A stretch of DNA of 64,000 nt from Prochlorothrix hollandica PCC 9006 = CALU 1027. Its GTDB lineage: Bacteria > Cyanobacteriota > Cyanobacteriia > Prochlorotrichales > Prochlorotrichaceae. The DNA lies in contig NZ_KB235933.1 in NCBI RefSeq assembly GCF_000332315.1, forward strand, positions 655,236 to 719,235, in the 5' to 3' direction. The notes beneath the pieces are model-generated. The model was not told the DNA's origin. It did no database searches and was given only the letters and a program-made list of their open reading frames with translations. The number at the start of each line of letters is the position of its first letter. Positions within the stretch are counted from its first letter, which is position 1. The position numbers were made by a program, and so were the translations under genes. Of the stretch, positions 21,378 through 27,316 are shown one piece after another.

Positions 21378-23216
21378 TTAGGGCCGTGGGTTACAGCGGT
21401 ATAACTGGTAGCGGTAATCACCAATGCGATCGCCATAGGCCGAGTCCGCCACACAGTCCGGTAGGTCTAACGGGCGATTGCCCAGGCTATTGATCAGCCA
21501 CACCTGCAAGGGGGCAGCATCGGGGTTCAGGGTGGTTTGCATCCCTTGCACCGTATCCTCCATGGTTTGGAACGACTGATCGTAATTGAGCCAAGAGGTG
21601 AAGAAAAACTGGGGGCGTTGGGAGTCCGGTAAGGACTGAAACTGCCAGCCCAGACCCATTAAGCCGCCCACTTGGCCATAGTGAATGTGGCCCGTCACCA
21701 CCAAGGCTGGCGCTCCATAGGCCGGTGCCATGGCTTTAAACAGCAAGTCGGGCCGAGCATTTTGCAGATAGCCCCACTGCCCCACACTGGTGATGACACT
21801 GAGGGCCGCCACCCCCCCCACCCACCAGCGCCGTCCCTGGAGTCCATCCACCAGGGCAGCACTGACCAGGATTAACAGGGTCATGGCATAGGGAAACTGA
21901 AATCGGGGCGCTAGGGTCAGGTCTACCCCCAGAACATAGGTGAGCAGGAGGACGATCGCCCCCGTGGCCAGGGTATACCCCCCCAAGATCTGTAGCCCCA
22001 GGGGGATATCGGGGGTTCCTGGGTTCCGATCATCGGGTTGGGTTGCTGGGGGTTCTGCCGAGAATTCTAGCGACCATGGAGCGGGAACCGGGTTGGGCTG
22101 GGGAAGACCGAGGGACTGGAGAACCGACGAGTTGCCCCCGCAGGCTTTGCCCCAGACGGTCAGGCTGGTGCGGGTGAGGTGGACAAACAGATAGAGGGTC
22201 ACACAGCCCACCAACACCAAAATCCCTAGGGGTAGCACATTGAAATCCGACGGCAACATCAAAACCATAGACACCAGCCAGAGCCAGAGTCGTACCAAAG
22301 GATCGACGGTTTGGGAAAAGGGGGCGCTGGAGCGAACCCATTGGGTTAGGGAGGGATCCGTTGGGATGATCCCATAAAAGATCCAGATGGAACTGACGAG
22401 GGCCGTACCCAGAGCCGCCAGCCCCAAGGGACCCAGCCACTGCCGCCAGTGGATCTGGACTTGGCTGCGCCGCTGCACCAAACAGCCCAGCACCACCATG
22501 GCCTCTGCCCCTAGGCCCAGGGCGGAAAAATAATGGGAAGCCATGGCTAAGCCATTGGACAGAACCCAAAGGCCAATCCAACCATAGGACAGGGATCGGC
22601 CCCGATCGATGGCCCGAATCACCCCCACCAAGCCAACGAGGGACAACAGGAGCCACAATTGGGCAAAGCTATAGTGGCGGGCTTGGCGGGACAAAAACAG
22701 GAGCAGGGGAGAGAAGGCGGTGAGGGCTGCTGCTGTCTGGGCCAAGGGGGGCGATCGGAAGGTGAACCAACTGAGACCAAAGGTGGCGGGGATCAGGGCC
22801 ACCCCCATCAAGGCGCTGGGTGCCCGGAGCCAAAACAGGGACAGGGGCCGATCGGGGGTCCCCATCCAGTGCAACCAACCATGCATCATCAGAAAGAAGA
22901 GGGGAGGATGGTTGTCATCATGGCGGAGGCGGGTCACCACATCCATCAAGCTGCGCTGGGGATCCAGGGCCAGGGGATCCAGCAATTTATCCAGACTGAG
23001 AACCTGATTAATGGGGATGGTGTCAAAGCTCCGACCCAAGCTAAAGACCCAAGTGGCACATTCATCCGTCCAGGGGGCAAAATGCCCCAACCACAGGAAG
23101 CGCACGACTGCCCCCAGAACAGTCCACAGGGCCAAGTGGTAGTAATGCCGGGTCGATAATCTGGCGGAAAATACGGTGGGGTGCAAGGGAATAGAGACAG
23201 GCTCAGGCACTGACAT
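21378..23216 (-). CDS. GT-C (ArnT/PMT-like, family 39-type) glycosyltransferase, membrane
   Basis: A 612-aa polytopic membrane protein with the architecture of GT-C glycosyltransferases that use a polyprenyl-phosphate sugar. After a short cytosolic N-terminus and first membrane helix, the conserved acidic loop WTDECATW supplies the likely catalytic Asp/Glu, and DDNHPPLFFLMMHGW is the HPP motif typical of the ArnT/PMT/GT39 clan. At least nine further hydrophobic helices follow, then a soluble C-terminal part. It would transfer sugars in the periplasm or onto lipid carriers. The start ATG at 23216 is preceded by an intergenic region with the omega RNA of the next element reading the other way. 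No operon partner is seen, so the acceptor is unknown. Confidence 0.75.
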   Translation of the reverse strand: MSVPEPVSIPLHPTVFSARLSTRHYYHLALWTVLGAVVRFLWLGHFAPWTDECATWVFSLGRSFDTIPINQVLSLDKLLDPLALDPQRSLMDVVTRLRHDDNHPPLFFLMMHGWLHWMGTPDRPLSLFWLRAPSALMGVALIPATFGLSWFTFRSPPLAQTAAALTAFSPLLLFLSRQARHYSFAQLWLLLSLVGLVGVIRAIDRGRSLSYGWIGLWVLSNGLAMASHYFSALGLGAEAMVVLGCLVQRRSQVQIHWRQWLGPLGLAALGTALVSSIWIFYGIIPTDPSLTQWVRSSAPFSQTVDPLVRLWLWLVSMVLMLPSDFNVLPLGILVLVGCVTLYLFVHLTRTSLTVWGKACGGNSSVLQSLGLPQPNPVPAPWSLEFSAEPPATQPDDRNPGTPDIPLGLQILGGYTLATGAIVLLLTYVLGVDLTLAPRFQFPYAMTLLILVSAALVDGLQGRRWWVGGVAALSVITSVGQWGYLQNARPDLLFKAMAPAYGAPALVVTGHIHYGQVGGLMGLGWQFQSLPDSQRPQFFFTSWLNYDQSFQTMEDTVQGMQTTLNPDAAPLQVWLINSLGNRPLDLPDCVADSAYGDRIGDYRYQLYRCNPRP

Positions 23217-23328
23217 GGATAGGACGGGGGGGTATGGGTGAGAATATCAGTGAGGATATCAATGATTTGACCTGTTATCCTTAGGTCACAGGAGTCTCTA
23301 TGGGACTTTCGCCCGATCGCTGAGTTGG
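23217..23328. other. Spacer upstream of GT-C gene and IsrB element
   Basis: No gene is seen. This should hold the GT-C promoter (minus strand) and the left boundary of the IsrB element. In IscB/IsrB systems the guide is the sequence directly 5' of the omega RNA scaffold, so the bases around 23315-23345 are the candidate guide and flank. Confidence 0.4.
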
Positions 23329-23559
23329 CTGTGTCATGGTTGTCACCAACCCCGAACTAAAGCGACGGGGCTTGTCGAAAGCTAAAGCCAATAGCGGAAA
23401 GCAAGGGTAAGTGGGACTAGACAACGGCTGAGAAGCCAAATTGGAGCGCTGAGGGTGGCACCTCGCTAGACGTTACAGACTCCTCCCTAATCCGTAACCG
23501 CTCTGCGTTTCTAATGTCGAAGGGACTTATATAGCAGCCTTTATCGGGCAACCAAAACG
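23329..23559 (+). ncRNA. Candidate omega RNA (HEARO-type) of the IsrB element
   Basis: The 230 bp directly upstream of isrB have no reading frame but contain compact structure: CCCCG (23350-23354) pairing with CGGGG (23366-23370) around GAACTAAAGCGA, then GCTTGTCGAAAGCTAAAGCC, and GAGGGTGGCACCTC. IscB- and IsrB-family nucleases are known to use an omega RNA encoded just 5' of the protein gene (originally described as the HEARO motif). Position, size and structured, non-coding nature fit. I cannot run a covariance model, so the boundaries are approximate. Confidence 0.6.
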
Positions 23560-23734
23560 ATGCAGTATGTTCCAGTAGTCGATTCCAATCAACGCCCCCT
23601 GATGCCAACAACGCCCAACCGAGCAGAGCGTTGGAGCAAATCGGGCAAAGCGACTCCGTTCTTTCGGAAAGGTATCTTCTGTGTTCGGCTCAACGTCGAG
23701 CCGTCAGGGCGAGTCACCCAGTCCGTCGCTGTTG
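23560..23734 (+). pseudogene. isrB: IsrB (IscB-like RNA-guided nuclease), 5' fragment
   Basis: The first 58 codons carry the PLMP domain that marks IscB/IsrB proteins: VPVVDSNQRPLMPTTPNRA, with PLMP at residues 13-16, then SGKATPFFRKGIFCVRLN. The frame runs up to SVAV and is then broken by the IS at 23735. Joining 23560-23734 with 25204-26048 removes the IS and one 8-bp repeat and gives exactly 340 codons (339 aa), with SVAVGVDPGSKREGF across the junction. That is the length expected of IsrB (about 350 aa). The ATG at 23560 follows the candidate omega RNA. Confidence 0.85.
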
Positions 23735-25195
23735 GGCGCATCCAGAGGTTGGGGGGGTACTACAATAAGAGAAAGAGCGCCCCTATCGAGACGCTCTGAA
23801 AAAACAAAAAAATGTACAACCATGGTAACAAAAATTGAACTTCCTGTGGCCTCCCTCTCAGAGTGGGAAAAACAGATCGGCAGCTTACAGCAAGCAGAAA
23901 CCCTTTCAGGCATGGTCTTTGCCGTGCTGGGAATCCTTCGATACCTAGGGAAAAGCCTCTTAGAAGGGGAACTAAAGCGTCGGAATGAAGCAGAGCAAAG
24001 CACTCCCAAGGCCGATTGTCCTCAGTGTGGTCACCGGTTAGAGAGCAAAGGGCAAGTCAGGCGAACCCTCACCACGCTCCTGGGAAAAATTGCCTGAAAG
24101 CGTCGAGTGTATCGTTGTCCGCAAGGATGTCAAGGGAGTCATCGCAGTCCCCTAGACGAGGCTCTGGGACTCGAACCCTACCAACAGACCTCCTGGGAAG
24201 TCAAGTACCTGGGGACGGTGCTGTGTATCTTTGTTCCCTATGGGCTATCGAGTCAACTCCTCAAACAACTCACCGGAGTGAGCATCAGTGAAAGTACCTT
24301 GTGGAACTGGGTACAGGAGACTGGAGACAAAGCTCGCAAACTTTGGGAAGACCGATTAAACTCCCCAGACGTTGGACGAGAGGAGATGAGTGCTGAGGTG
24401 GCTCAACTGATTATGGTCATTGCAGGGGATGGGGTGATGGTGCCGTTCCGTCCTCACAGCGGAACCGCCCAAGGCAAAACGATTTGGCGAGAGGTAAAAG
24501 TGGCGGTGGTGGCTCGTCTGCAACATCTGACTACCGCAGCCGGAAAACATTACACTCGCTTAGTTCAACGGCGATTAATCGCGATCCAAGGAGATGTAGA
24601 TGACCTGAAACAACGACTGGTGTGGGAAACTCAGTATCAGGGGATTGAGGACGCTCCTAAGGTCGTCTGGTTGAGTGATGGAGGGGTTGGGTTTTGGCGC
24701 ATTTTTCGAGACTGCTTTGCGACCTGTGCCGTGGGGATCCTCGATTTTTATCATGCAGCGAGCCATTTGTGGAAGGCAGCCCAAGCCTATCTTCACCATG
24801 ACCCAGACACGGCCCAAGTCCGCTTCGAGCACTGGCGGCATTTATTACGCCACGGCAAACACAATCAAGTCCTTTGGCAACTCACCCGGTTGGTCAATAC
24901 GGCAGAGCTTCCAGAACCCCAGATGCAGGCTTTGGCTCAGGTTCAGGCTTACTTCACAGAACACCGCCAACACATTGCCTATTCTACGTTTGAAACTGAA
25001 ACCTTCCCCCTTGGCTCTGGGTTGGTCGAAAGTGCCTGTAAGTGGCTGATTCAGCAACGCTTTAAGGGGGTCGGAATGCGATGGAGTGCTAAAGGCTTTG
25101 AGCATCTCCTCTACCTCCGACTCGAATGGGTCAATCATCGCTTTGATGCCCTTTTCCCCTCTTCTTCATCTCCCCCCTAACCTCTGGATGCGCCC
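23735..25195 (+). mobile_element. ISKra4-family insertion sequence (about 1.46 kb) inside isrB
   Basis: Ends are inverted repeats: GGCGCATCCAGAGGTTGGGG on the left and its near-complement CCCCTAACCTCTGGATGCGCC on the right. The host sequence CGCTGTTG occurs at 23727-23734 and at 25196-25203, a target duplication of 8 bp (7-9 given ambiguity). This size fits the ISKra4 family. Removing the IS and one repeat restores the isrB frame exactly. A small hairpin (GAGCGCCCCTATCGAGACGCTC) lies before the transposase. Confidence 0.9.
23822..25180 (+). pseudogene. ISKra4-family transposase with in-frame stop
   Basis: A DDE-type transposase of the ISKra4 family, in one frame from ATG 23822 to 25180 except for a TGA at 24095-24097. 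The N-terminal part (to LLGKIA) has a zinc-ribbon half, CPQCGHRL; the part after the stop resumes with KRRVYRCPQGCQGSH and then the catalytic domain: D in VIAGDGVMVPFRP, D in WLSDGGVGFWRIF and E in GLVESACKWLIQQRFKGVGM. Because both sides are in the same frame and the protein continues without loss, a single base change (for example CGA to TGA) explains the stop. The whole protein would be about 452 aa, normal for the family. Unless read through, this copy is inactive; an internal GTG or ATG could start the second part. Confidence 0.85.
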
Positions 25196-26048
25196 CGCTG
25201 TTGGCGTTGATCCAGGTTCCAAGCGTGAAGGTTTCACGGTCAAGTCTCAAGCGCACACCTATCTCAATCAACAGTTTCAGGCTGTTAATTGGGTGAAGGA
25301 TGCAGAAGAAGCAAGTACAAAGGCACGACGGGCACGACGCTATCGCAAGACTCCCTATCGTGTCAATCGAAAAAATCGCAAGCGTGGCGGAATCCCTCCG
25401 TCAACTAAAGCACGATGGCAACTTAAAGTCAGGGTGGTCAAGGTCTATGCCGCAATCTTTCCGATTTCTCATATCGGGATTGAGGATGTCAAAGCCGAAA
25501 CCCGCAAGGGTTGTAAGACCTGGAACACCTCTTTTTCGCCCCTTGAAGTCGGGAAGCAGTGGTGCTACTCCGAGTTAAGGGAGATTGCCAACCTGACGAC
25601 TTTTAACGGTTACGAAGACACTTACCTGACTCGTCAAGCATTGAGGCTGAAGAAGTCTAAGAATAAGCTGTCTAAAGGGTTTAACGCTCATTGTGTTGAT
25701 TCCTGGGTTCTGGCTTATTTACTTGTCGGCGGTGATTCCTTCCCCGATAACACCGAGGTCATAGAATGCAAACCCATTAGATTGCATCGTCGTCAGCTTC
25801 ATGTTTTCAACCCTGGAGAACGCGGGTATCGCCGTCCTTACGGCGGATCAATGTCTCAAGGACTAAAACGTGGCGGGATTGTCAAACATCCCAAGTATGG
25901 CAAGTGCTATGTTGGTGGCGAGGACATTGTGAAGTCTCGCGTGAGTCTCCACAGTCTTGCTGCAGGCAAACGTCTTTGTCAAAACGCAAAGCCAGAAGAT
26001 TGTAGGTTTTTAGCCTACAACTCATGGCGAACTGTAAAGCCGTCCTAA
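25195..26048 (+). pseudogene. isrB: IsrB, 3' fragment with complete RuvC domain
   Basis: This fragment carries all three RuvC-like motifs: D in VGVDPGSKREGFTV (RuvC-I), E in HIGIEDVKAETRKG (RuvC-II) and D in HCVDSWVLAYLL (RuvC-III). An Arg-rich bridge-helix-like segment (TKARRARRYRKTPYRVNRKN) follows RuvC-I. Between RuvC-II and RuvC-III there are only about 75 residues and no HNH motif, which separates it from IscB and makes it IsrB, a family reported to nick DNA under omega RNA guidance. The C-terminal part (VKHPKYGKCYVGGE, SLHSLAAGKRLCQNAKPEDC) matches the family's target-interacting tail. The PLMP part lies beyond the IS. The reading frame is open from 25086 inside the IS, so a truncated protein could still be made, but without the PLMP domain. 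Confidence 0.85.
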
Positions 26049-26056
26049 AAGGACGG
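26040..26056 (+). terminator. Right-end hairpin of the IsrB (IS200/IS605-like) element
   Basis: CCGTCC-TAAAA-GGACGG followed by GGTTT overlaps the isrB stop codon. This GCCGTCC...GGACGGGGTTT arrangement is typical of the right end of IS200/IS605-type elements that carry IscB/TnpB-like genes. It can also act as a terminator. The next gene starts 22 bp later. Confidence 0.65.
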
Positions 26057-26077
26057 GGTTTCCACCCACATTTTCTG

Positions 26078-27316
26078 ATGAAGCTCGTCCCCCTCGTCCT
26101 CACATCCCTTGCGCCCGTCGCCACTGCAACCCCGGCAGTCGCCCAGAATCCCCTTCCGGCTCCCCCAGTCCTGAATGCCCCAACCCCCCAGATCTTGGCC
26201 CAAAGCAATCAGCTTCCGGCCTCGATCGCCAACGCCGTCCTCCAACAGCATTCCCTGACCACCGGGCGACCGGCCTATGCCTTTCGCCTCGCCAATGCCA
26301 GCCTCGCCACCTGGAGCGATAGCTGCTTGGGTCTGGCGGTGACCAACGAATTTTGTGCCCCGGTGCAGGTGTCTGGCTGGCGGGTCGCCCTGTCCGATGA
26401 TCTGCAACAGTGGATCTATCGCACCGATGCCAGCGGCTTGGTTATCCGCTTAGAAACCACCGCCGCCCTAGCCCCTGGAACCGCTACCCCTCCAGGCTAT
26501 ACCTCTCCCGGCTATAGTCCCCAGACCTATCCCCCCCAGACCTATCCCCCCCAGACCTATACCCCTCCCGGTTATACCCCTCCCGGCTATAGCGCCCCCA
26601 GTCCCGTTGCCCCGACCCCGGCGATCGTCAATGATGGCTGGGATGCAGAACTGCGGTGGTCCCGATTAGTGGACTCCCCCGATCCGGAAGTGCTGTTTCA
26701 GTTGATGGTGTTGCAAAAACCAGAAACCCTCTACGCCAACGTGGTCTACCAGTTTTATGCCCGAGAAAAGGGTAAGTCGGGCTGGACTTATATCTACACA
26801 ACCCTGGGGGCCAGATTATTGCAAAATGGGTCTGGTTCCGTGGAATTACCCCTAGAAAGCTTAAAACTGGATGAAGTGGCCCAAAAGATGGGCTATCAGT
26901 TCAACTGGTCTAATACGGATATTCGGGTCAGTGTGTTGTTGCGCTATGACCTCTCCAAGGAGCAACGGGATCTGCGCCTCAAGTTCCAACATGACAGCAG
27001 CTATACCGCCATTACGCCCCTCAGCCTGACCCAACTGCAACGGACGGCGGGGACCGGTGCTAGTCCTACCCCTGGGGTCAACCCCTACGCCCCCCCACCC
27101 ACCAATCCCTATCTCTATCCCACCCAGCCCGTCACCAATCCTAGCTTCCCCTATCCGGCCTATCCTTACCCCAGCCAACCGGCCACCGTCCCCGTGCAAC
27201 AGGGCTTCACGGTGCCCGGTGCAGCCCCAGTCTATCCCACGGTGCCCACCAGCGCACCTCCTCCCGGTGTCCCCGTCTTGCCCCCCTTAAGTACCCCCTA
27301 TCCCTATATGAATTAG
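26078..27316 (+). CDS. Secreted proline/tyrosine-rich protein of unknown function
   Basis: I do not recognise a named family. The ATG at 26078 is chosen because it starts a signal peptide (MKLVPLVLTSLAPVATAT, cut near AVAQ); upstream in-frame codons belong to the end of the IsrB element. Residues about 60-130 form a conserved-looking region with two Cys (SWSDSCLGLAVTNEFC is close to the visible WSDSCLGLA...EFCAPVQVSGW). Then comes a Pro/Tyr array of (S/T)PPGY and PPQTY units, a central globular part (YANVVYQFYAREKGKSGW, LLRYDLSKEQRDLRL), and a Pro-rich C-terminal tail with NPY and YP repeats. It is likely a periplasmic or cell-surface protein. Because the mobile element ends only 22 bp upstream, its native promoter may be displaced. 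Confidence 0.65.
   Translation: MKLVPLVLTSLAPVATATPAVAQNPLPAPPVLNAPTPQILAQSNQLPASIANAVLQQHSLTTGRPAYAFRLANASLATWSDSCLGLAVTNEFCAPVQVSGWRVALSDDLQQWIYRTDASGLVIRLETTAALAPGTATPPGYTSPGYSPQTYPPQTYPPQTYTPPGYTPPGYSAPSPVAPTPAIVNDGWDAELRWSRLVDSPDPEVLFQLMVLQKPETLYANVVYQFYAREKGKSGWTYIYTTLGARLLQNGSGSVELPLESLKLDEVAQKMGYQFNWSNTDIRVSVLLRYDLSKEQRDLRLKFQHDSSYTAITPLSLTQLQRTAGTGASPTPGVNPYAPPPTNPYLYPTQPVTNPSFPYPAYPYPSQPATVPVQQGFTVPGAAPVYPTVPTSAPPPGVPVLPPLSTPYPYMN

Follow-up and report, generated by a model that had tools for sequence, protein, structure and literature searches.

Positions 23342-23559 of the window, which is the whole analysed stretch of 64,000 nucleotides from Prochlorothrix hollandica PCC 9006 = CALU 1027, are an omega RNA gene of the IsrB type (HEARO) and form part of a cyanobacterial mobile element. 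The explanation that we regard as highly probable is that an IsrB element inserted between the leader of a host gene and its ATGA start codon, that the RNA is built to guide the IsrB nickase to the empty allele, and that any activity is exerted in trans. The components of the locus are listed in table 1.

Table 1. Features of the IsrB element and its insertion site in the window.
Feature	Positions	Strand	Basis
Guide: final 20 nt of the leader that belongs to the gene at 26078, immediately next to the left end of the element	23322..23341	+	Sequence unique to the window copy
Omega RNA scaffold (HEARO, IsrB type)	23342..23559	+	RF02033 match 23342-23532; covariation in 36/52 pairs
isrB 5' part, PLMP domain, residues 1-58	23560..23733	+	Pfam RRXRR; start (100%) of the IsrB frame read across the insertion
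ISKra4-family insertion sequence within isrB	23734..25195	+	Inverted ends GGGCGCATCC; 7-bp duplication CGCTGTT
isrB 3' part, RuvC I-III without HNH, and C-terminal TAM-interacting domain	25203..26048	+	Pfam RRXRR; DtIsrB alignment
Right end, with the hairpin CCGTCCTAAAAGGACGG and, at the terminus, CACCCACATTTTCTG	26040..26077	+	Shared as far as the ATGA by every family-A copy
ATGA: target-adjacent motif, belonging to the target DNA rather than to the element; also the start codon of the gene that follows	26078..26081	+	Comes after every intact copy; empty sites of relatives read guide and then ATGA
Gene at the insertion start codon, 412 aa	26078..27316	+	Signal-peptide-like N-terminus

The original prediction proposed a structured omega RNA here and a covariance-model search as its check. 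The HEARO model (RF02033) does align over its full length at 23342-23532, starting at GTCA, but with 24.7 bits (E 0.061) it falls below the gathering score of 83 bits. Rfam alone would for this reason not settle the identity of the RNA; the alignment of copies does. Independent matches in relatives occupy the same position and score 28-36 bits, also far under 83, and the Rfam cut-off thus misses this branch. A match to a viral frameshift element elsewhere in the window (25702-25739), again far under the cut-off of its Rfam model, was taken as chance.

Comparison of copies reveals a conserved fold. In an alignment of 17 sequences (the window copy and 16 further copies and relatives), two-sided changes that keep the pairing occur at 36 of 52 base pairs, 94.9% of the cells pair, and none of 500 shuffles reaches the observed covariation. 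When the partners are slid by one to three columns, paired cells fall to 33-46% and only 8-12 pairs show two-sided change, a contrast that is somewhat favoured by derivation of the structure from the same alignment. Minimum free energy was rejected as proof of the fold, since folding of the single sequence is no better than that of shuffles (z +1.5), and the fold therefore rests on comparison rather than on energy. Both the GTCGAAAGCTAAAGCC core and, at about 23350-23371, the CCCCG...CGGGG stem lie where the original prediction placed them, and cross-copy covariation bears out the structured stretch.

The scaffold runs up to the PLMP start of isrB at 23560, and the predicted position of the RNA directly 5' of this gene is correct. 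The gene itself, however, is interrupted: a 1462-bp ISKra4-family element splits isrB after residue 58, with copies of the target duplication at 23727-23733 and 25196-25202, and the window element is thereby left without an intact isrB. Read across the insertion, isrB encodes 339 aa that align with residues 3-331 of DtIsrB (8DMB; E 2.4e-32). The best full-length relative is IsrB, whereas IscBs match only the N-terminal third to half; between RuvC II and III there is only a short linker in place of the HNH domain that marks an IscB. The transposase frame of the ISKra4-family element carries an in-frame TGA at 24095-24097. A second copy of this element (G000:C7:311213) is 100% identical in its first 439 bp, which include the TGA, and five shorter pieces are also present; the element may have spread with transposase supplied in trans.

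The boundaries of the IsrB element (23342-26077) are set by alignment of the copies in the genome. At least 13 further copies exist in the host: the HEARO search found 12 places, falling into two families (A and B), and additional searches added locus L015, which carries an intact isrB, together with L032 and a fragment, L027. Intact copies are similar from GTCAC onward (TTCAC in L015) and show no similarity 5' of that point; because the similarity starts so sharply, 23341 is the last base of the guide and 23342 the first of the element. Their right ends read ..TTTTCTG or ..TTTTTG and are followed by ATGA every time. The right-end hairpin beats shuffles when folded as DNA (z -2.5). One family-A mini-element (L007 1501-1898; G000:C9:51450) is interrupted by a palindromic repeat of about 100 bp, GTGTGGTGTGCCCCCGGAGGGGGCACACC, and similar sequences lie near L035, L039 and L040. 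The same right-end hairpin, AAAGCCGTCCT..AGGACGGGG, occurs in the host-genome sequences L035-L040; some of these end in TTTTAGGTAA in place of CTGATGA, which marks them as members of a separate element family whose ends are similar. A Y1 transposase was considered as the mover and rejected: the host genome encodes one intact Y1 protein, a short one of 139 aa (L115), but the stretch read beside it showed no element ends of this kind.

Six relatives carry an intact isrB that is 80-84% identical, and the joined flanks of the relatives' elements were searched in each other's genomes. Empty sites were found in Microcoleus-type genomes between acpP and fabF (L043), at trxA (L042) and at an ATPase gene (L041). 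In all three, the upstream flank is joined straight to ATGA, with no base gained or lost at the junction. Since empty sites read guide and then ATGA, the ATGA belongs to the target and constitutes the target-adjacent motif (TAM). Measured IsrB TAMs are NTGA for DtIsrB and NTG for cyanobacterial IsrBs (PMC9581776); the ATGA at the window element agrees with these and with a cyanophage insertion at ATGA (PMC11237433). The aligned copies confirm an omega RNA with its guide on the 5' side. They also uphold, together with the empty sites of relatives, the proposal that bases around 23315-23345 record the insertion site, except that the boundary falls between 23341 and 23342 and not at about 23345. 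Guide, scaffold, element end and TAM are in this way fixed to the base for a cyanobacterial IsrB family.

Being structured and upstream of a gene, the RNA could also be read as a regulatory leader of that gene, akin to a riboswitch, and not as a guide RNA of a mobile element. The same sequence nevertheless stands before unrelated genes with isrB in between, and the sites in relatives are cleanly empty; on the strength of the unrelated downstream genes and the empty sites this reading was rejected, and we consider it extremely improbable.

The element, at 23342-26077, entered the junction at which the leader of the gene at 26078 meets its ATGA start codon, and the function of its RNA is proposed by analogy with the known IsrB family. 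The scaffold and the adjoining leader, of which 16-20 nt are expected to be used as guide, would direct an IsrB nickase to the empty allele, in which the guide is followed by ATGA; nicking of that allele would help the element to stay in place or to come back. In the filled allele the guide runs on into GTCA, so that the TAM is missing and this allele would be spared. For the window locus the predicted empty allele reads CATGGTT joined directly to ATGAAGCTC, and a search of the host genome for a second target of the 16-nt guide free of mismatches found none.

Insertion at start codons recurs among these elements. In the host genome, the ATGA of 8 of 13 elements opens a frame of at least 100 aa: psbV (residues 2-159 fall on profile positions 2-159), trpD, proC, sipA, genes for an S1 protein and an ABC permease, a frame of 121 aa and the gene that starts at 26078, which has no Pfam or NCBIfam match. 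Cyanobacterial elements that bear isrB, those of the host included, were scored by a fixed rule, which takes the first ATGA from the isrB stop onward; in 15 of 28 it opens such a frame, including those at nadA, cphA and a thioredoxin gene. Start codons make up 12-16% of all ATGAs, and enrichment over that baseline is clear.

Placement at start codons might reflect survivorship alone: insertions inside genes would be lost, and many of the ATGAs left over would be start codons. Outside genes, 31% of ATGAs in the window are start-like (24/77, on a crude gene map), and since start codons already account for roughly a third of the ATGAs between genes, much of the pattern may arise in this way. The observed fractions exceed 31% all the same (8/13, p 0.023; 15/28, p 0.011; pooled 23/40, p 5e-4), in small samples that share L015 and against that crude map. 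We give survivorship as the whole explanation an even chance; enrichment beyond it is suggestive. A more specific idea, which we hold tentatively and think somewhat doubtful, is that the start codon serves IsrB as a landing mark: the ATGA/NTG requirement would settle the element between leader and ATG, the host promoter would make the guide RNA and the right end would keep the gene translated. No description of a start-codon preference of IsrB/HEARO elements was found in the literature searched, which did not extend to the founding HEARO and OMEGA papers. The window element is a member of a known IsrB/HEARO kind, and the start-codon pattern is not claimed as new.

In some other lineages (L160, L162, L165 and L168) the ATGA adjoins or overlaps the stop codon of isrB, with SD-like GAGG/AAGG just upstream, and translation of the host gene could be coupled to that of isrB. 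In L158 the isrB frame runs into CTCATGGCTGAGG, likely the start of another gene, which suggests that this lineage uses an ATGG (NTGG) motif at the start codon.

Start-codon placement bears on how such a guide may be expressed. Because the element itself does not contain the guide, transcription would have to begin upstream, from a host promoter. At a start-codon site the guide is the leader of the next gene and would stand behind the promoter of that gene, in the right direction. This suggests a testable way in which a guide external to its element could be transcribed, with start-codon sites behind the psbV, trpD, proC and fabF promoters. At the window locus the upstream neighbour (21378-23216) is divergent, on the minus strand, and because it runs the opposite way any promoter must sit in the 125 bp before the element; a consensus scan of those 125 bp for a promoter upstream of the guide found nothing above chance.

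Use of the window element in cis is not possible, because its isrB is disrupted and L009, the other family-A copy that bears an ORF, situated before psbV, carries a deletion in its interior. With its own isrB dead through the ISKra4-family insertion, any present activity of the window RNA would be in trans. It is slightly less than an even bet that the locus is a dead remnant, whose isrB was lost to that insertion and whose RNA has ceased to be produced or put to use, a reading that departs from the guide-RNA explanation in present activity only. Both ORF-bearing family-A copies are broken, the sole intact isrB belongs to the other family, and the promoter scan gave no match, all in favour of a remnant. 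Set against this, the window RNA is 99% identical to that of L009 and keeps the conserved fold, and the insertion itself looks recent, to judge from the fully identical first 439 bp of the second ISKra4-family copy.

The sole intact isrB in the host genome, that of L015, is a 379-aa open frame and is 44% identical. Many copies without an ORF keep intact ends and scaffold, and the window RNA, like them, could be used now by the L015 protein. The omega RNA of L015, however, is 75-78% like those of ORF-less family-B copies and only about 67% like the window RNA. Working in trans is conceivable for the window RNA, but because the L015 RNA is closer to family B, such use is likelier for family B, and current use of the window copy by L015 IsrB seems unlikely. 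Family B (L001-L006, L012, L032) consists of ORF-less copies of 291-292 bp that are 92-100% alike over their first 205 bp and contain a full omega RNA scaffold.

Four known systems come closest to the element. As in DtIsrB (PDB 8DMB; PMC9581776), the protein combines PLMP and RuvC without HNH and can be aligned over residues 3-331, the omega RNA immediately precedes isrB and has the guide on its 5' flank, and the TAM (NTGA/NTG) fits the ATGA of the window; the window isrB, in contrast, is split by an insertion sequence. HEARO (RF02033) matches over its full length beginning with GTCA and sits in an equal position relative to the ORF, whereas the scores of the window and matching relatives (25-36 bits, far under 83) set them apart as a divergent branch. 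Like ORF-less miniature elements of the IS200/IS605 type, copies of about 292-297 bp keep both ends and have no protein gene, but they retain the whole guide-RNA scaffold and not end sequences alone. Finally, the Microcystis orf2067 IsrB element in cyanophage Mic1, an insertion made up of isrB with 207-bp upstream and 59-bp downstream parts, is likewise inserted at ATGA, but landed within a tnpB-like gene and not at a start codon (PMC11237433).
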